56,677 nt of DNA, taken from positions 1 through 56,677 of the forward strand of contig JAENWJ010000007.1 of the NCBI GenBank assembly GCA_016649995.1, given 5' to 3'. Position 1 is the stretch's first letter. Every line of letters begins with the position of its first letter. Position numbers and translations under genes: made by a program. The notes under the pieces are model-generated. The model did not search any database. It had not been told where the DNA came from and saw only the letters and a program-made list of their open reading frames with translations. This document shows, one piece after another, positions 2,327-12,444 of the stretch. Origin of the DNA: Peptostreptococcaceae bacterium (lineage in GTDB: Bacteria > Bacillota > Clostridia > Peptostreptococcales > BM714).

Positions 2327-3919
2327 ATGACGAAATTTTTCAAAAAACCATTTATGCTGATTTTAAGTTGTGTAATGGTTTTATCTGTGTCCGTACCGGT
2401 TTTCGGTGCAGTAACAACGAGTGATTATGGGTCACATTGGGCTAGTAATACAATACAATCTGCTATAGATTCAGGAATGGCGAAAGGATATCCTGATGGG
2501 ACATTCAAGCCGGACAATGAAATTACTCGTAGCGAGTTTTTTTCGTTTGTGAATAATGCGTTTGATTTCACAGCCGAATCTGAAGACACATATACGGATG
2601 TTATAGCCGATGCCTGGTATGCGCCTGTCATTGCGAAAGCAAAAGCAGCAGGGTATATAGAGGGGTATCCAGATGGCGGCATTCATCCGGAAATAGAAAT
2701 TTCCCGTCAGGAAGCAGCAATTATTCTTAACCGACTTGAATCACTGACACCGGTAGGAAGCACATTGGCTTATACCGATGCATCAGCAGTTGCTGATTGG
2801 AGTAAAGAGGCCATTATCGCTATGTTTGAAGCAAAAGTCATGATTGGTTACCCAGACGGCAGTTTCAAGCCCGAGAAGCAGATTACACGGGCAGAAGCTG
2901 TAGTAGCTTTGAATAACCTCTTGAATTATCAAGAACTGACCATAGAGACTGAAAATGTAAGTGTAGAAACTCCTAGTGTGGATCAGAAAACAATGACACT
3001 GACAGTGGGCGGAGAAACAGATACAATCATATTTGACAATGCAACTAACGAAGATATTAACTGGACTTCAAGTGATACAGATGTGGCAACTGTCGAGGAT
3101 GGCATAGTCACACCTGTAGGCGTAGGAACTGCAGAAATAACCGGTTCGTCGGCAGAGGATGGGACTATAATGGTAACGACCCTCGCGACGGTGAATGAAG
3201 AAGAGACGGTTACACCACCGGTTACACCACCGGTTACATCAGTGGTTACATCAGTGGGTAATCCTGTAGAGCTTGGTATAGCAGGCGACTACGTGGTTTT
3301 ATCAAAAGCAGGAATTTCCTCCGTGCCGAATTCTGACATAACAGGCAATATCGGAGTTAGCCCAATTGATTCGACAGCCATCACTGGTTTTTCACTGACT
3401 GTGGATGCATCAAACCAGTTTTCGATTTCCAGTCAGCTTACTGGCAAGGCATTTGCAGTAGACTATACAGCTCCAACACCTTCAAACCTTACAACAGCCA
3501 TCAGCAACATGGAAGCGGCTTATACCGATGCTGCTGGAAGAGCTGCTGATTATACAGAGCTTTATAGTGGCGACTTGAGTGGCAAAACACTTACAGCGGG
3601 TGTATACAAGTGGGGTACAGGGGTTCTGATCAATTCAGATGTAACACTTAGCGGTGGACCTGATGATGTGTTTATTTTACAAATTGGCCAAGGAATTACT
3701 CAAGCCAGTGGTACCAGAATCATCCTGGCAGATGGAGTGCAGGCTAAGAATATTTTCTGGCAGGCAGCTGAATCTGTTTCGATTGGTACCGGTGCACATT
3801 TAGAGGGAATCGTACTTAGTATGACAAATATCTCTTTGGATACCAATGCATCAGTTAATGGACGACTGTTGGCGCAAACTGCAGTCACTTTAGATCAGTC
3901 TACGGTTGTTGAACCTTAG
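2327..3919 (+). CDS. S-layer-anchored protein with DUF3494 ice-binding-type domain
   Basis: This 530-residue secreted protein has a signal peptide (residues 1-28, cut after VFGA), three SLH domains (about 33-77, 89-136, 149-197, each with a GYPDG...F.P...I.R.E core) and an Ig-like Big_2 domain (215-290). A Thr/Pro-rich linker with TPPVTPPVTSVV (295-310) follows, and the protein ends in a DUF3494 domain (313-527; G.Y..LS..GIS..P.S.ITGNIGVSP). SLH domains hold proteins to cell-wall polysaccharide. DUF3494 is the fold of bacterial ice-binding proteins and also occurs in adhesins of organisms that never meet ice. A strong AGGAGGG site precedes ATG 2327. The gene is monocistronic with its own terminator. 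Adhesin or surface-structure protein is as likely as true ice binding. Confidence 0.85.
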   Translation: MTKFFKKPFMLILSCVMVLSVSVPVFGAVTTSDYGSHWASNTIQSAIDSGMAKGYPDGTFKPDNEITRSEFFSFVNNAFDFTAESEDTYTDVIADAWYAPVIAKAKAAGYIEGYPDGGIHPEIEISRQEAAIILNRLESLTPVGSTLAYTDASAVADWSKEAIIAMFEAKVMIGYPDGSFKPEKQITRAEAVVALNNLLNYQELTIETENVSVETPSVDQKTMTLTVGGETDTIIFDNATNEDINWTSSDTDVATVEDGIVTPVGVGTAEITGSSAEDGTIMVTTLATVNEEETVTPPVTPPVTSVVTSVGNPVELGIAGDYVVLSKAGISSVPNSDITGNIGVSPIDSTAITGFSLTVDASNQFSISSQLTGKAFAVDYTAPTPSNLTTAISNMEAAYTDAAGRAADYTELYSGDLSGKTLTAGVYKWGTGVLINSDVTLSGGPDDVFILQIGQGITQASGTRIILADGVQAKNIFWQAAESVSIGTGAHLEGIVLSMTNISLDTNASVNGRLLAQTAVTLDQSTVVEP

Positions 3920-3973
3920 ACAATAAGTATTTGAATAAGCAATTAGAACAAACTTGCATGGAATACAGGTGAG

Positions 3974-4021
3974 AGTCCCGTGGGCAGAGTTGAAACAACT
4001 CGCCTGCGGGACTGTTTTTTT
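3974..4021 (+). terminator. Intrinsic terminator of the S-layer gene
   Basis: AGTCCCG pairs with CGGGACT around an inner GGGCAGAGTTG/CAACTCGCCT stem, followed by seven T. It lies 55 bases after the stop of the SLH gene. Confidence 0.85.
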
Positions 4022-4069
4022 ATCTGAGCTGAGGGAACTAAATGAATTTTTAGATGAAGAGCAGAAGAA

Positions 4070-4118
4070 AAATCACTGGGTAAATCACTGGGTAAATCAC
4101 TGGGTTAAATCACTGGGG
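4070..4118 (+). repeat. Four tandem copies of a 12-base unit (AAATCACTGGGT)
   Basis: Units start at 4070, 4082, 4094 and 4107. The last has one extra T before it and runs into GGGGACGGTTCTTTTTG, a sequence I associate with REP-like elements near Y1-type (RAYT) transposases in Clostridia. An open frame across it (71 codons, NHWVNHWVNHWV) has no ribosome site and is not called a gene. The remaining bases to 4356 hold nothing recognised. Confidence 0.6.
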
Positions 4119-4356
4119 ACGGTTCTTTTTGATTTTTGTGAATCAACAGGGGTAAAGTTATTAATGTAGTTTCGATATCAATTCTAATAGTTGTTACTAT
4201 AATCATACTGAAACGGGACTCATTTAAAAATTTTCATAGAAAGAAGATTGTTTAGTTTAAATATGCATATTTTAAGAAAAAATTTCAAGAAGAAAATCGA
4301 ATTGCAAATGGAGAGATATTCCACCTAAAAATTAATATAAATTGTCATAAAGCACG

Positions 4357-6039: not shown

Positions 6040-6065
6040 TATCACGAATTGAATACCACAATCCG

Positions 6066-6157
6066 TACTGGGGGAGCTGGGAGGCCAGCTGAGATAAAGA
6101 CCTGTTAAAGTCTTTGACCCTTTACCTGATCTGGATAATGCCAGCGTAGGGAAGTTA
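6066..6157 (+). promoter_or_regulatory. TPP riboswitch (THI element)
   Basis: The conserved segments appear in order: ACTGGGGGAGCTGG, GCTGAGATAAAGAC, GACCCTTTACCTGATCTGG and ATAATGCCAGCGTAGGGAAG. The CTGAGA loop binds the pyrimidine of thiamine pyrophosphate and the ACCTGATC.GGATAATGCCAGCG arm binds the diphosphate. A terminator follows at once, so TPP binding should stop transcription before thiW. Confidence 0.95.
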
Positions 6158-6170
6158 CATTTTTATGCGA

Positions 6171-6211
6171 AAAAAGCATAAATCCTTATGAATGGGGATT
6201 TATGCTTTTTT
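6171..6211 (+). terminator. Riboswitch-controlled terminator
   Basis: AAAAAGCATAAATCC pairs with GGATTTATGCTTTTT (15 bp) around a 10-base loop, followed by TATTTTT. It lies between the TPP aptamer and thiW and is the expected expression platform. Confidence 0.85.
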
Positions 6212-6257
6212 ATTTTTCCTTTTCCCCGTACGGAAAATTTCAAGGGAGAGATTATTT

Positions 6258-6755
6258 ATGGAAACAAGAAAACTCACGACTTCAGCACTGCTCATCGCCC
6301 TAGGAACCGTCGCCGGGCACATGATCTACATACCGGTGGGGATTGCAAAATGTTTTCCTGTGCAGCACACTATCAACGTCCTCTCAGCCGTGTTGCTGGG
6401 GCCATGGTACGGTGTTGCAAATGCCTTCGTAATCTCACTGCTGCGAAACATTTTAGGTACAGGGTCGCTTCTGGCCTTTCCGGGCAGCATGATTGGCGCT
6501 CTTCTTTCTGGATTGCTTTTTCAAAAATATGGAAAGAAGATCTGGGCCCTTGCCGGGGAAATCTTCGGAACCGGTATCATAGGCGGCATTTTAGCCTTTC
6601 CGATTTCAAGATTCCTCTTAGGCAAGGAATTCACAGCTTTCTTCTTCATTATTCCGTTTCTGGCAAGCACTATCGGCGGCAGCTTGATTGGCTATGTATT
6701 GCTGAGCGTAATGGAAAAAAACAAATCCATGAAAACAATTATTAATCGGAGATGA
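6258..6755 (+). CDS. thiW: ThiW, S component of an ECF transporter for the thiazole precursor
   Basis: This 165-residue polytopic membrane protein has five to six hydrophobic segments (begins METRKLTTSALLIALG; contains VQHTINVLSAVLLGPWYG). ThiW proteins are substrate-capture subunits that use the shared EcfAAT energizing module, encoded elsewhere. ATG 6258 is chosen because AAGGGAGAG lies 8 bases upstream; frames starting earlier overlap the terminator. First gene after the TPP riboswitch and followed by thiD after 4 bases. Codons are rich in G/C at third positions compared with genes on either side of the operon. Confidence 0.85.
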   Translation: METRKLTTSALLIALGTVAGHMIYIPVGIAKCFPVQHTINVLSAVLLGPWYGVANAFVISLLRNILGTGSLLAFPGSMIGALLSGLLFQKYGKKIWALAGEIFGTGIIGGILAFPISRFLLGKEFTAFFFIIPFLASTIGGSLIGYVLLSVMEKNKSMKTIINRR

Positions 6756-6759
6756 CCCC

Positions 6760-7566
6760 ATGAAAAAAGCATTGACAATTGCCGGTTCTGACAGCAGCGG
6801 TGGCGCCGGTATACAGGCTGATTTAAAAACCTTTTCCGCCCACGGAATATTTGGAATGAGTGTCATCACAGCTGTCACAGCCCAAAATACCCAGGGTGTT
6901 TTAGCTGTGCAGGATATCACACCTGAAATCATCCAGAAACAGATCGAAGCTATTTTCGATGACATCGCTGTAGATGCCTTGAAAATCGGCATGGTATCCC
7001 AAACAGAAACCATAAATATCATCGGGTCCACTTTGAAAATTTACAATCCGAAATCCATTGTCTTGGATCCTGTGATGATATCCAAGAGCGGCTGCAATTT
7101 GCTTCAGCCTGAAGCGACGGAAGCCTTGATTCGGATTCTGCTGCCCCTGGCAATAATCATCACCCCCAATATCCCCGAGGCGGAAGTTCTAACCGGCATG
7201 AAAATCGGCAGCCTTAAGGATATGGAATCAGCCGCCCGGCGCATACACGACATGGGTCCTCAAAACGTCCTCATAAAAGGGGGGCACCGCATTGATGATG
7301 CAACGGATATTTTTTGGGACGGCGCCAATTTCAAGCGTCTAAGCAGCCGGAGAATCGTCACCAAGAATACTCATGGTACGGGATGTACCCTGTCCTCAGC
7401 CATTGCTTCCAATCTGGCGACGGGTTTCGGTATCGAAGAAGCGGTAGTAAAGGCAAAAGCATATATAACTATAGCCATCGAGCACTCCCTGTCCATTGGA
7501 AAGGGCGTAGGGCCTACCCATCACTTCTACGAATTATATGAAAAGGCAGGTATGAATAATGAATGA
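6760..7566 (+). CDS. thiD: ThiD, HMP/HMP-phosphate kinase
   Basis: This 268-residue cytoplasmic ribokinase-fold enzyme phosphorylates 4-amino-5-hydroxymethyl-2-methylpyrimidine and its monophosphate to the diphosphate that ThiE couples to the thiazole unit. The substrate motif AGSDSSGGAGIQADLKTF is at residues 7-24, KIGM follows near 73, and the anion-hole/catalytic motif NTHGTGCTLSSAIA near 204. Length is normal for ThiD. It overlaps cytX by 8 bases, as expected of translational coupling. Transcription is governed by the upstream TPP riboswitch. Confidence 0.95.
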   Translation: MKKALTIAGSDSSGGAGIQADLKTFSAHGIFGMSVITAVTAQNTQGVLAVQDITPEIIQKQIEAIFDDIAVDALKIGMVSQTETINIIGSTLKIYNPKSIVLDPVMISKSGCNLLQPEATEALIRILLPLAIIITPNIPEAEVLTGMKIGSLKDMESAARRIHDMGPQNVLIKGGHRIDDATDIFWDGANFKRLSSRRIVTKNTHGTGCTLSSAIASNLATGFGIEEAVVKAKAYITIAIEHSLSIGKGVGPTHHFYELYEKAGMNNE

Positions 7567-8797
7567 TGCAAACAAAAACAATCTTTCTTTTTTAAGCTTT
7601 TTAGGTCTTTGGTTTGGGGCTTCCATATCCATCGCCGAAATCATGACGGGTGGTCTTTTGGCTCCCATGGGTTTTAAGACCGGAGTCATAGCCATTCTTT
7701 CAGGACACCTTATAGGGACTGGCATTCTTGCCCTAGGCGGCATCATCGGAACCGAAGAAAGACTTCCTTCCATTATGTCCACCCGAATATCTTTCGGATT
7801 ATACGGCTCTTACCTGTTTTCAATATTCAATGTCCTGCAATTAATCGGGTGGACGGCTGTCATGATAATTTCTGGCGCACGTTCCGTCAACCTTATTTCA
7901 AAAGCACTCTGGGACTTCGACAATACTTCCTTTTGGAGCATAATCATCGGTGGACTCATCTGCCTTTGGATTGTCATGGGCAAGAACGGCTGGAAAAAAA
8001 TCAACATCATAGCCGCGGGCCTGCTCTTCTTGCTCACCATCGTACTCAGTTATGTCGTATTTGGAGATGCTCACCTGCTAACAAATACTGTTTCTGGTGA
8101 AATGTCCTTCGGAACAGCTCTTGAACTGAGTATAATCATGCCTCTTTCATGGCTTCCATTGATTGCAGATTACACGCGATTCGCCAAAAGCAAAAAAGGC
8201 GGCATATCCGGCAGCTTCATAGGCTATTTTGTAGGAAGTTCATGGATGTACATAATCGGCCTTGGAGCGGCTATTGTAGCCAAGAACCCAGATCCGGGAG
8301 CAATGATGCTTGCAGCGAACCTAGGATTTGCAGCCCTCGGAGTAGTTGTCCTTTCCACTATAACGACCACCTTCCTCGATGCTTATTCTGCTGGCGTTAC
8401 CTTTCTCAATCTGCTCCCGAAATTGGACGAAAAAAAAGTCGCCTTGGCTATGGGATTAATCGGTACGCTAATCGCACTGGTCTTTCCTATTGAGTCATAT
8501 GAAAACTTCCTATATGCTTTAGGGTCAGTATTTGCACCTATGTTTGCCATTCTGTTAACTGACTACTTCATCATTAGGAAAAGCAGACAGCTCCAAAAGG
8601 ATCTTTTGGTGAATTGGGGAGCTACTATAGTTTGGGTGTTCGGCATTTTCATGTATTATCGATTCATCGAATATGATTTTGCCTTCGGCGCCACCCTGCC
8701 GGTCATGATAGTAACCGGCACCATTTACACCTTGGGATGGAGGTGGATGGCAAATTGGAAATACTCGAAGAAGCTGGAAACCTCCTGCAAATCCTAA
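7559..8797 (+). CDS. cytX: CytX, putative hydroxymethylpyrimidine permease (NCS1 family)
   Basis: This 412-residue membrane protein of the nucleobase:cation symporter-1 family has about 12 hydrophobic segments and begins LSFLSFLGLWFGASISIAE. CytX members occur almost only in TPP-riboswitch operons next to thiD and are assigned to uptake of the HMP moiety of thiamine. The substrate is a genome-context prediction for the family. It overlaps thiD by 8 bases and its 3' end overlaps the chosen thiM start by 61 bases. Confidence 0.9.
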   Translation: MNDANKNNLSFLSFLGLWFGASISIAEIMTGGLLAPMGFKTGVIAILSGHLIGTGILALGGIIGTEERLPSIMSTRISFGLYGSYLFSIFNVLQLIGWTAVMIISGARSVNLISKALWDFDNTSFWSIIIGGLICLWIVMGKNGWKKINIIAAGLLFLLTIVLSYVVFGDAHLLTNTVSGEMSFGTALELSIIMPLSWLPLIADYTRFAKSKKGGISGSFIGYFVGSSWMYIIGLGAAIVAKNPDPGAMMLAANLGFAALGVVVLSTITTTFLDAYSAGVTFLNLLPKLDEKKVALAMGLIGTLIALVFPIESYENFLYALGSVFAPMFAILLTDYFIIRKSRQLQKDLLVNWGATIVWVFGIFMYYRFIEYDFAFGATLPVMIVTGTIYTLGWRWMANWKYSKKLETSCKS

Positions 8798-9567
8798 GAG
8801 AAAAGAATCCATTGATTCATCATATAACCAATCCAGTAACCATAAATGACAGTGCCAACATAGTCCTAGCCATGGGAGGCTCCCCCATTATGGCCGACGA
8901 TCCTTCAGAAGTAGAAGAAGTCGTCTCCATGGCATCGGCACTAGTCATCAACACAGGAATGCCTGAACCCAGAAAACTTAAGTCCATGATTCTCGCAGGT
9001 AAAAAAGCAAACGAATTAAGGATTCCCGTAGTTTTAGATCCTGTCGGGGGGGGACTTACAAAATTAAGAAAAGAGACCCTTGAAAACTTGCTCGGAACCA
9101 TGGTTTTTTCGGTAATCAAGGGTAACCAGGCCGAGATCCGACATCTGGCGAGTTACGAATACAGCCTAAATGGTGTTGATTCTCTTCCTGATAAGATGAA
9201 TGGAATTGAAGTCGCAAAGGCGGCTGCCCAAAAACACAAGTGCGTCATCGCAATGACAGGGAAAGAAGATATTATAACAGATGGAATACGAAGCTATTCC
9301 ATAGAAAATGGTCATTCCATGCTTTCAGCCATCACCGGCACCGGGTGCATGTCCGCTTCCCTTATCGCAGCCTTCTGCGGCGTCACAGAAGACTTTTTGT
9401 TGGCGGCCGTCAGCGGAATGCTATCCATGGGTATAGCTGGAGAATCTGCAGGCAGAAGTCTGTCTGTGGGGGAAGGCATCGGCTCCTTCAAAGTGAGATT
9501 TTTCGATCATATTCAGCTCACAAACAAAGATATATTAATTAAGGAGGGACGCATCCATGAGTTATAA
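8737..9567 (+). CDS. thiM: ThiM, hydroxyethylthiazole kinase
   Basis: This enzyme phosphorylates 4-methyl-5-(2-hydroxyethyl)thiazole to the partner used by ThiE. Diagnostic features are [14 protein letters not shown] near residue 25, VVLDPVGGG near 98 and the catalytic [16 protein letters not shown] near 192. The start is uncertain: ATG 8737 gives 276 residues, while TTG 8755, with GGAGGTGG at 8740-8747, gives 270 and removes residues not usual in the family. Either way the gene begins inside cytX, and its 3' end overlaps thiE by 11 bases. Confidence 0.93.
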
Positions 9568-10183
9568 GAACACAACAAATTATTCATTGTATTTGGTCAC
9601 TGATAGAGGTCTCCTGCAGGGCAGGGACCTCCTTGGCAGCATACGTGAAGCTATTGAAGGAGGCGCGACACTCGTCCAGTTAAGGGAAAAGGATCTTCCG
9701 GAGGAGGCCTTCTTAGATTTGGCTCTTAAGGTGAGACAACTCACGGACAGTTACGGCATCCCCCTCATCATCAATGACAACATTTCCATAGCCAAGGCCG
9801 TGGGTGCCGCCGGGGTTCACCTCGGGCCCGATGACTTATCCGTTTCCAATGCCAGACTTTTCTTAGGCGATAGCATGATTATCGGAGCTTCCGCCAATTG
9901 TTTAGCTGAAGCCCTTGCCTTCGAAAAAGAAGGCGCGGATTATCTGGGAGTGGGTGCATTATTTCCTACCGAAACCAAGAAAGATGCCGAGACCGTGAGC
10001 CTCGACACACTTCGCGCAATCAAAGATGCCGTCAATATTCCCATTGTAGGCATCGGCGGCATCGGCCTTGACAACGTCAGAGACGTCATGGCTTCCGGAG
10101 TTAATGGCATCGCAGTTGTTTCAGCAATACTCAAAGAAACGGATATAAAAAAAGCCACTTCCGATTTAAAAAGCATATTGTAA
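9557..10183 (+). CDS. thiE: ThiE, thiamine-phosphate synthase
   Basis: This 208-residue TIM-barrel enzyme joins HMP-diphosphate and thiazole-phosphate to give thiamine phosphate. Seen are LYLVTDR near residue 11, QLREKDLPE near 42, the Mg/diphosphate site INDN (about 72-75), GVHLGPDDL, and the phosphate-binding [10 protein letters not shown] near 170. With thiW/cytX uptake and the thiD/thiM kinases it completes salvage of both thiamine halves; no de novo genes (thiC, thiG) are present here. It is the last gene of the operon, and AAGGAGGG is its ribosome site. Confidence 0.95.
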
Positions 10184-10204
10184 CTCAAAAGGCCTTCGCC
10201 GATT

Positions 10205-10393
10205 TACCTGAAGTATTTCGATCTAAAATATGATGGCATCATTGAAGAAGCATTGAAAACGAATCCGATACAGGATAAACCCAAAGGTAAACGAGGTCGT
10301 CAGAAAAAAGGTAAAATAAGATCTTTAATCGAACGGTTTGCAACATACAAAGGTGAAATCTGCCTATTCATCAATGATTTTATAGTTCCATAG
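10205..10393 (+). pseudogene. C-terminal fragment of an IS66-family transposase
   Basis: Sixty-two codons just after thiE read as an IS66 transposase C-terminal region: YDGIIEEALKTNP, then KGKRGRQKKGKIRSLIERF, then CLFINDFIVP and a stop. Normal IS66 proteins continue with DNNQAERD, which is absent. There is no start codon or ribosome site. It marks the downstream edge of the thiamine operon. The AT-rich stretch from 10394 to the leader at 10640 shows no gene. Confidence 0.75.
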
Positions 10394-10639
10394 CGTGTAG
10401 TAATTTTTGTTTCATAGAACAGAAAGCAACTTATTGCATTTACTACTCTTGAGTATTTTGGAATTATACTAAAAATGTGTTATGATTAAATTATAGATTA
10501 GTGAAGTAATACTGTGATTATCTGAGGGATGAGTTGATATATGCATATCTAGAAATTAATTAGTCATTCATTCGTAGAGAAAGCAGATATGAAAAATTTA
10601 TAAGAATTGGGGTTTGCGTAGGACCATATGGAAATACGC

Positions 10640-10725
10640 TATACTATTTTAAAAATGGTATATTGTGAACTATTTAAGTGAAACTTAGACACTTAAACTC
10701 TTAATGGAGTTGGAGTGTTTTTTTT
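10640..10725 (+). promoter_or_regulatory. Leader with possible attenuator before the PLP/GNAT gene
   Basis: A -10 (TATACT, 10640-10645) is followed at 10655 by a nine-codon frame (MVYCELFK, stop TGA at 10679-10681). Its end overlaps a hairpin TTAAGTG/CACTTAA (10674-10680 with 10690-10696). That hairpin excludes a second, terminator-like hairpin (10689-10700 with 10706-10718, one mismatch and one G-U) that runs into eight T. Two exclusive stems with a minigene ending in the first arm is the layout of ribosome-dependent attenuation. The -35 is weak and the minigene has no clear ribosome site. Confidence 0.5.
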
Positions 10726-10743
10726 ATGTTTAAAGGAGGAATT

Positions 10744-12102
10744 ATGTTAAAGAGTGGTAGAACGCCATTAATACGTGCACGAAATCTAGAAAAGATATTG
10801 AATGTTGGAGAAATATATTTAAAGTTGGAAGGACAAAACCCAACAGGGCATAAGAACGATAGAATCGCAGAAGTGTTGGTCAAGAATGCGATGGCGCAAA
10901 ATAAAAGTCAGATTATAGCTTATGGGTCTCTAACCTATATAAGATCAATAATATATTTTGCGGAACTATACAATCTAAAAGCAATTGTTCCAATGTTTAA
11001 GAATGAAAGATGGAAGACAACTAAATTTGAGGATAAATATTTGATGGATTTTAGATATTCAAAAAATCCTAATAAAATTGAATTTATAAAAGAGTTGTCA
11101 GATGAAACGGGTGGTTTTATAGCAGCAGAAGGGTACAGCAATACTCATATAAGTCAAATGGTATTAGAAAATTTGATTAGTGAAATATTAGTTAAAGTTA
11201 AATATAAATTAGATACAGTTACAATTCAACTTGGCTATGGCTATACAATGACTAGTTTATATAACATTTTTTTAAAGAACTGGATGAATGATAATTTGTC
11301 AGCATTTCCAACTGTCTATTGTGGAACTTGGGCAGAGAATAAAAGTGTGTATAAAAAATATTTAGAATCAAACAATAAAGAATATTTGCCGGAGGACTTA
11401 GAAGAACTCAGTACTGATCACATGCCAAAAGAATCGTTTCAAATGGATGAGAAGCTTATAACGGATACCCATGAAGCTGTAACAGAGACTAATGGCGTAG
11501 TCATCGCTATTAATGAACAAGAATTAAAAAAAGCTTCTAAGTTGTTAAAGAAGACTGAAACAATAAGTACTGATTATAAAGAATCATATGCCCTAGCAGC
11601 GTTCATAAAACAGGTGGAGGCTGGAAAGATTAAAGAAGGAAAACATATAATTATTTTAAATGATGCAAAAACTATTGCGAGGGTAGAACAGTATGAGGCA
11701 TCAATGGGTATAGGAGTTGAAAAATTGATTAATATGACCACAAATTGGCTTGCTGAATACCGAGACTCTACGCTAGAAACTAAAGAAGCAGTTGAAAATG
11801 CGCTGGATAAAGGGTTTATACTATTAGCTTCAAGAGATGGTGAATATGAAGGTATTTGTGTGATTGTCAACACAGGATTTGATGCTTTTCTTCCGAAATA
11901 CCACCTAACTTATATTGGAACTTCGGATAAGATAAAAGGACGGGGTATTGGTAGTGAATTAATACAAAGAGCTATTGATTTAACTGAAGGTAATTTGTCA
12001 TTGCATGTTGACTTAGATAATAAAGGTGCAAAGAAAGTGTATGAAAAATATGGTTTTGAACACGTTTATAACAGGATGATTTATAAAGAGAGAGGATATT
12101 GA
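10744..12102 (+). CDS. Fold-type II PLP enzyme fused to a GNAT acetyltransferase domain
   Basis: This 452-residue protein has residues 1-310 resembling the threonine synthase/tryptophan synthase beta superfamily: TPLIRARNLEKIL, then LKLEGQNPTGHKNDRIA, where the Lys of HKNDR sits where the Schiff-base lysine of SFKDR lies in threonine synthase. Residues about 340-452 form a GNAT domain with the acetyl-CoA loop (KIKGRGIGSELIQRAI) and the C-terminal NKGAKKVYEKYGFEHV motif. ATG 10744 follows AAAGGAGG by 5 bases; an upstream ATG at 10726 lies in the leader and has no site. The natural substrate is unknown. The PLP half may make or break an amino-acid-like compound that the GNAT half acetylates. 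The stop TGA lies at the end of an IS605 relic. Confidence 0.75.
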   Translation: MLKSGRTPLIRARNLEKILNVGEIYLKLEGQNPTGHKNDRIAEVLVKNAMAQNKSQIIAYGSLTYIRSIIYFAELYNLKAIVPMFKNERWKTTKFEDKYLMDFRYSKNPNKIEFIKELSDETGGFIAAEGYSNTHISQMVLENLISEILVKVKYKLDTVTIQLGYGYTMTSLYNIFLKNWMNDNLSAFPTVYCGTWAENKSVYKKYLESNNKEYLPEDLEELSTDHMPKESFQMDEKLITDTHEAVTETNGVVIAINEQELKKASKLLKKTETISTDYKESYALAAFIKQVEAGKIKEGKHIIILNDAKTIARVEQYEASMGIGVEKLINMTTNWLAEYRDSTLETKEAVENALDKGFILLASRDGEYEGICVIVNTGFDAFLPKYHLTYIGTSDKIKGRGIGSELIQRAIDLTEGNLSLHVDLDNKGAKKVYEKYGFEHVYNRMIYKERGY

Positions 12103-12392
12103 ACCTCCCATGGCTAAAGTCACGAGATTCCTAGGAACAGAGCTTACTTGATGTCAAAACTTTGTATGATATCAGCGGTTTCTCTTATTAACTAAGCTAT
12201 CCCCGTCGTCCCGACGGTTCTGTTTGAGGCTTATGCTGATAACAACCGAAGACCCTCGCTGCGTATATTGACGCTGGCATTGATGTCCCGATCTAGAATA
12301 GAACCACAGTTTGGGCAAACCCACTCTCGGATATCTAGAGATTTTTTACCATCTCTATAGCCACATTCCGAACAGATTTGTGAGGTATAATA
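12103..12392 (-). mobile_element. IS200/IS605-type relic: tnpB 3' end with right end
   Basis: On the minus strand, from 12392 to a stop at 12231, about 53 codons encode the TnpB zinc ribbon and tail: [10 protein letters not shown], then [20 protein letters not shown]. Downstream to 12103 are a CCGTCGGGACGACGG hairpin and a terminal stem (CTCGTGA...CCATGGG) followed by AGGTTCAA, the form of an IS605-family right end. The RuvC residues D and E upstream and the tnpA gene are gone. The retained part corresponds to the region that encodes the omega RNA scaffold in this family. Confidence 0.75.
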
Positions 12393-12444
12393 TAACAATG
12401 GAGCGATATATTGAGACCGAAAATAATTGTAGTGGGGGATTTCA

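Follow-up and report, generated by a model that had tools for sequence, protein, structure and literature searches.

Not many RNAs are known that sense salt or osmotic state. The Na+-I riboswitch (DUF1646 motif, RF03071) is a terminator-type ON switch with a two-stem architecture that acts on osmotic-stress genes including ablA, and a c-di-AMP OFF switch acting on ablA has also been described (PMC9337991). Two riboswitch candidates precede genes encoding betaine/proline-type transporters, both of them acting on the ribosome site: the proX motif, found in 17 copies in Spiribacter (PMC8632094), and the opuB motif of Enterobacteriaceae, which has five stems and a ligand said to be shikimate-related (PMC11109978).

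The window analysed here, which is the whole stretch of 56,677 nucleotides of contig JAENWJ010000007.1 from a Peptostreptococcaceae bacterium, contains a leader RNA located 5' of a gene encoding a PALP-GNAT fusion protein. Like the Na+-I riboswitch this element is a terminator-type leader of osmotic-stress genes, ablA among them, but it does not share the two stems reported for that riboswitch (PMC9337991) and the RF03071 model matched neither the element nor any place in 21 element-bearing genomes. With Na+-I present in 0 of 21 carriers, the element may replace it in these lineages. The c-di-AMP riboswitch (ydaO-yuaA, RF00379) is similar in that it controls termination at Bacillota osmolyte and cell-wall genes, but it is an OFF switch and showed no match in sequence or structure to the element, although it is present elsewhere in the genome in 8 of 20 element-bearing genomes. 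The proX and opuB motifs also precede betaine/proline-type transporter genes and are set apart by their published descriptions, which give other taxa, another architecture and another expression platform.

No match to the element was obtained with Rfam 15 at curated (gathering) scores in the window or in 40 copy-bearing loci, and permissive E-values gave the element chance-level scores only. The sole curated match in the copy-bearing loci was a T-box situated elsewhere in its locus (L038). No description of the element was found in the open-licence papers, a literature that is not searchable by motif. Leaving aside the identity of the ligand and the role of the enzyme, we consider it probable that this is an unlisted terminator-switch RNA which senses an osmotic-state signal on behalf of osmolyte genes. 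Such a sensor would be common, being found in about 8% of the sampled Bacillota genomes.

Structure and conservation of the leader

The initial annotation of this locus had proposed a possibly near-leaderless message, with a minigene whose translation decides between a terminator and a hairpin that excludes it. The features recognized in the present analysis are the following, with the kind of evidence in brackets.

10598-10725, + strand: whole leader element, a structured RNA in which stem P0 encloses the three hairpins P1-P3, with a terminator, 5' of the PALP-GNAT gene
10603-10611, + strand: 5' core AGAA(C/T)TGGG, upstream of the P0 strand (conservation over 87 copies)
10612-10615, + strand: 5' strand of P0, GTTT, partner 10687-10690 (covariation)
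10616-10639, + strand: hairpin P1, GCGTA 10616-10620 with TACGC 10635-10639, inner CC/GG 10624-10625 with 10630-10631 (covariation)
10640-10662, + strand: hairpin P2, 10640-10646 with 10656-10662, holding the previously annotated -10 and minigene start (covariation)
10663-10686, + strand: P3, 10669-10671 with 10677-10679 and 10665 with 10684, internal loop GTGA/GAAAC (mutual information, covariation, held-out model)
10687-10690, + strand: switch strand AGAC, which is the P0 3' strand and the 5' base of the terminator (columns covary with both partners)
10689-10725, + strand: intrinsic terminator, stem 10689-10701/10706-10718, T-tract 10718-10725 (folding, covariation)
10655-10681, + strand: annotated minigene MVYCELFK, judged to be a by-product of P2 and P3 (frame comparison across copies)
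10732-10739, + strand: Shine-Dalgarno AAAGGAGG serving the start at 10744 (sequence reading)
10744-12102, + strand: degenerate PALP-like domain fused to a GNAT acetyltransferase, 452 aa, with Asn38 in the position of the PLP lysine (profile matches, alignment)

A homologous leader precedes the PALP-GNAT gene of genome G151, whose protein is 48% identical to that of the window. Between these two leaders alone six pairs are altered on both sides, with paired changes in P1 (GCGTA/TACGC versus GCACA/TGTGC), P2, P3 and the terminator. The covariance model built from these two detected copies in 37 of 297 genomes from the order, the majority with E <1e-7. A second model, made from 33 matches (30 full copies and three short terminator fragments), located the element in 17 of the 391 genomes searched in the class and in 27 of 348 across the phylum, and a further search of the phylum with more copies located it in 31 of 398. 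Carriers of the exact pattern include Fusibacter bizertensis, F. paucivorans, F. ferrireducens, Fusibacter sp. 3D3 and Clostridium ganghwense, as well as a strain deposited as Lutibacter sp. B2. When a model was made from 83 copies, leaving out the window and its two nearest copies (the G151 homologue and one in G133), it gave the window copy a score of 101 bits (E = 2.5e-26), and the runner-up place in the 56.7 kb had an E of 0.0049.

Covariation was assessed in an alignment of 87 full copies across Bacillota, for which the aligning model did not include P0. Over stems P0-P3, 96.6% of the cells are paired, compared with 30-44% in slid controls, and both partners have changed in 23 of the 25 pairs; none of 500 shuffles reached the observed values. 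P0 (columns 15-18 with 90-93) is 98.9% paired, both-side changes are seen in all four of its pairs (GC/AU; CG/UA/UG; CG/UA/UG; UA/UG/CG) and the four are intact together in 83 of the 87 copies. P1 is 97% paired with all five outer pairs covarying, and P2 is 98.8% paired with both-side changes in six of its seven pairs; P3 shows the same behaviour. A mutual-information scan recovered P0 and the outer P3 pairs, both of which were absent from the aligning model. A conserved and covarying folded core, as is required of a riboswitch class, is thus present in this 5' leader, and from the alignment a real conserved RNA structure is as good as certain.

In the 5' core most positions are conserved in at least 90% of the 87 copies and the window deviates at column 10 only, where C is replaced by T. 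P0 could possibly be extended by 10609-10610 pairing with 10692-10693, which flank a G.A mismatch. The two outermost pairs of P3 are mismatched in the window, and the window copy, lacking these pairs and having an AT-rich competing hairpin, could be weakened. Two copies found 5' of ablB-type genes (L058 and L062) have an altered core, AGAGATG..ATTC instead of AGAACTGGGGTCT; this subtype might differ in ligand preference.

The annotated promoter and minigene

The covariation also bears on the promoter and the minigene that had been annotated. The supposed -10 (TATACT, 10640-10645) forms the 5' arm of P2, and the ATG of the minigene is located at the 3' arm; since both belong to one covarying hairpin, transcription must start upstream of about 10603 and a near-leaderless message is not supported. 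In a promoter scan 5' of the element no consistent -35/-10 pair was found. A MerR-type operator between -35 and -10, an idea suggested by the inverted repeat GCGTA/TACGC, was dropped as the repeat covaries as an RNA stem.

Ribosome-mediated attenuation, in which stalling of a ribosome on MVYCELFK would release or block the terminator, draws on features that are all present in the window. The frame can be read from ATG to TGA (nine codons, that is eight and a stop, 10655-10681), the overlapping hairpin 10673-10680/10690-10697 forms eight of eight pairs, and the terminator is strong. The comparison of copies argues against it, as the hairpin has at least seven pairs in just one other of the 87 copies and the start of the frame is inside a covarying stem. 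At the place of the ATG the copies have ATG (44), GTG (37) or TTG (3) interchangeably, and other codons in three cases. A stop codon is spelled by the P2 arm together with the next base, so that in 70 of the 84 copies with a possible start the frame has two codons only (NTG GTA TAA, or with a similar codon in second place); the frame of the window is longer because a TAA is lost there. No Shine-Dalgarno precedes the minigene ATG in the window, no peptide is conserved among the copies, and the letters of the frame are explained by base pairing. The check that had been suggested, aligning the leaders of orthologues, did reveal a leader that is conserved and covaries in some of them, but neither the minigene nor the antiterminator hairpin was conserved. 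Since it is P0 that is conserved instead, control by stalling is unsupported and we regard it as very unlikely. The case shows how a conserved hairpin can mimic a -10 box and a leader gene.

Terminator and switch geometry

The proposal of a cis-acting terminator switch upstream of the PALP-GNAT fusion was right, and folding against shuffles confirmed that its terminator is intrinsic and strong (-13.9 kcal/mol, z -4.6, with 0 of 200 shuffles of its own sequence as good). Over the copies 94.3% pairing is seen in the terminator (columns 90-106 with 113-129), and 0 of 500 shuffles reached the observed values. Columns 90-93 covary with two partners, the P0 5' strand and the terminator's 3' foot. 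As the P0 3' strand consists of the first columns of the terminator, P0 and the complete terminator are mutually exclusive, so that the stem closing the putative aptamer and the terminator form an expression platform. Base-pair covariation shows that stems P0-P3 and the terminator exist and that the strand closing the junction doubles as the terminator foot. It is very likely that the terminator controls transcription of the gene.

In minimum-energy folds the base of the terminator was formed in 78 of 83 copies, and forcing P0 had a median cost of 6.9 kcal/mol, these energies leaving out tertiary contacts. The predicted preference for the terminator over P0 is as expected for a switch that only a ligand keeps open. 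We propose that when the signal is missing the more stable terminator would form and transcription would stop before the gene, and that binding of the signal would hold the junction and P0 together, sequestering the terminator foot and letting RNA polymerase read through. This ON polarity, deduced from geometry only, seems likely. The opposite polarity would have a ligand such as c-di-AMP or the accumulated solute disrupt P0 and let the terminator form, and is in agreement with the fact that c-di-AMP and end-product feedback usually repress osmolyte genes. However, P0 closes a conserved junction and a ligand is therefore expected to stabilise it, and the element is unlike RF00379, which sits at other places in those carriers that have it; an OFF switch is accordingly thought rather unlikely.

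By eye, the 5' flank AGAACUGGGGU (columns 6-16) can be aligned with the terminator arm ACUCUAACUCU (columns 94-104) at 9 of 11 positions, both strands being too conserved for a covariation test. This pairing may be a further part of the switch.

Compact terminator leaders of similar size, such as the LicT/BglG and PyrR sites, can be protein targets. The same structured RNA might in this way be the antiterminator site of a regulatory protein and not the receptor of a small molecule, and weak scores to the PyrR and bglG leaders were indeed obtained. These scores, 15-22 bits against cut-offs of 54-80, are at chance level, no regulator gene was noticed adjoining the copies, and the element spans many families of the phylum and several gene types. 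A conserved core of four helices is also typical for aptamers. Overall a protein site appears improbable, and direct sensing of the ligand by the RNA is, on these sequence grounds, quite probable.

Genes downstream of the element

The genes located first downstream of the 87 copies are consistent and functionally linked. Family-3 solute-binding proteins of amino-acid ABC transporters (SBP_bac_3) are encoded in 26 cases, BCCT betaine/choline/carnitine transporters in 18, lysine 2,3-aminomutase AblA in 15, a ProV-type betaine/proline ABC ATPase in 14 and an ABC permease in four. The beta-lysine N-acetyltransferase AblB was confirmed in four cases, with a fifth (L062) assigned by resemblance only. 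A PALP-GNAT gene follows directly in two copies and behind an M20 hydrolase in one, and two misfits encode a PHP-domain protein and a protein with no family match. By inspection, three copies found later precede two SBP_bac_3-like genes and one ProV-like gene. Genome G408 has a pair of copies on opposite strands, separated by about 2 kb, of which one precedes ablA and the other an amino-acid transporter gene. In the window's genus no convincing copy was found 5' of a BCCT gene (G001) or of an ablA gene (G000).

A signal of osmotic or ionic nature is, in our opinion, likely. It would be a small molecule or an ion reporting osmotic or ionic stress, with Na+ or K+ as the first candidates and a compatible solute or its precursor as the next. 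As for single ligands, Na+ is a tentative first guess, a solute or a lysine derivative seems less likely, another ion less so again, and c-di-AMP is the least probable of these. Taken more broadly, there is somewhat better than an even chance that the element represents an unlisted Bacillota-wide riboswitch class in which an osmotic-stress signal (an ion such as Na+ or K+, or a compatible solute) switches on betaine import, import of lysine-family amino acids and synthesis of N-acetyl-beta-lysine; in a few genomes it would also switch on a new enzyme for acetylated solutes, derived from a pseudoenzyme resembling PLP enzymes. So coherent an osmolyte regulon narrows the ligand to a small set that can be tested. 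The element also flags unstudied genes as likely contributors to osmoadaptation, namely the lysine-less PALP-GNAT family and certain amino-acid ABC transporters.

The PALP-GNAT protein

The copy in the window would govern a single gene. Its frame (10726-12102, 458 codons) matches PALP (E 2.7e-23) and GNAT (Acetyltransf_1, E 3.6e-11), and the start is probably at 10744, behind the Shine-Dalgarno, and not at 10726 as annotated. Both domains of the annotated fusion were therefore found, but with the PLP lysine missing from the entire family it is doubtful that a PLP enzyme takes part in "making and acetylating" a compound. Over its full length the PALP domain can be recognised as that of threonine synthase-like fold-type II PLP enzymes (PF00291; PDB 2zsj, 6cgq). 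Unlike threonine synthase, with its motif NPTGSFKDR, the PALP-GNAT members have no PLP-binding lysine: it was replaced (by N, Y, F, I, L, E, M, T, A or V) in 30 of 30 readable members, and the loop after this position is also altered. In the window protein Asn38 is found where the catalytic lysine was expected and the Schiff-base lysine of the xKDR motif is missing, while a related Cytobacillus protein retains NPTGSHKDR. From these substitutions we infer that the PALP domain may be a pseudoenzyme domain which positions the substrate for the GNAT domain. Structure prediction from two sequences gave a mean pLDDT of 37 and was not used.

The genes of the AblAB pathway for N-epsilon-acetyl-beta-lysine (TIGR03820, TIGR03827) are frequent targets of the element, and AblB is also a GNAT enzyme. 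The window protein differs from AblB in having an additional PALP-like domain and no match to TIGR03827. Because of the regulator of its gene, the likeliest product would be an acetylated compatible solute of amino-acid-like nature, and the enzyme would then acetylate such a solute or its precursor. That PALP-GNAT is a solute acetyltransferase we take to be an evenly balanced proposition. In one locus (L086) the element is followed in one operon by an M20-type hydrolase (RocB/ArgE/DapE-like, 1246-2907) and PALP-GNAT (2911-4272), a pairing of deacylase and acetylase that suggests turnover of an acetylated amino acid.

About 30 full-length PALP-GNAT relatives with 33-54% identity were found in 198 genomes of the order. 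These lysine-less fusions are common in the order (G000 to G190), mostly as single genes with varied neighbours, too mixed to indicate function. Three PALP-GNAT genes only have this leader, and the remaining loci examined were without the element.

Genomic neighbourhood

Other features of the window around the PALP-GNAT gene are listed below.

6060-6169: TPP riboswitch, upstream of the thiamine cluster
6192-10183: thiamine gene cluster (transporter, ThiD-like, permease, ThiM-like, ThiE-like)
10184-10393: 69-codon remnant resembling the tail of an IS66-type transposase, with no Pfam match
12234-12443, - strand: partial TnpB-type transposon protein (PF07282, E 8e-16), adjacent to the PALP-GNAT gene on its 3' side

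The PALP-GNAT gene and its leader have a G+C content of 32% compared with 46% for the upstream thiamine genes; together with the TnpB fragment this contrast hints at transfer of the gene and its leader. Searches of viral, phage and plasmid collections yielded no close relatives apart from a mislabelled Acetoanaerobium chromosome. Possible transfer, with an AT-rich gene and leader adjoined on the 3' side by the TnpB fragment, would suit an acetyltransferase for antibiotic resistance or detoxification that captured the leader by chance, and a resistance gene was among the settings suggested in the initial annotation. Nevertheless, related genes in two other genomes (48% and 53% identity) carry the same RNA, one of them via an operon, and the RNA's other targets are, with few exceptions, genes for osmolytes or amino acids. 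A resistance gene is not supported, the leader being one of an RNA family found with osmolyte genes, and we hold chance capture to be unlikely.

In three loci of a related clade (L028, L029 and L030) another short leader is found, between about 50 and 15 bases upstream of the PALP-GNAT start. It has a good promoter followed by a hairpin, GCATTTCAAC..GTTGAGATGC, with TTTTGTTTT abutting the ribosome site, and is possibly another attenuator of the PALP-GNAT gene.
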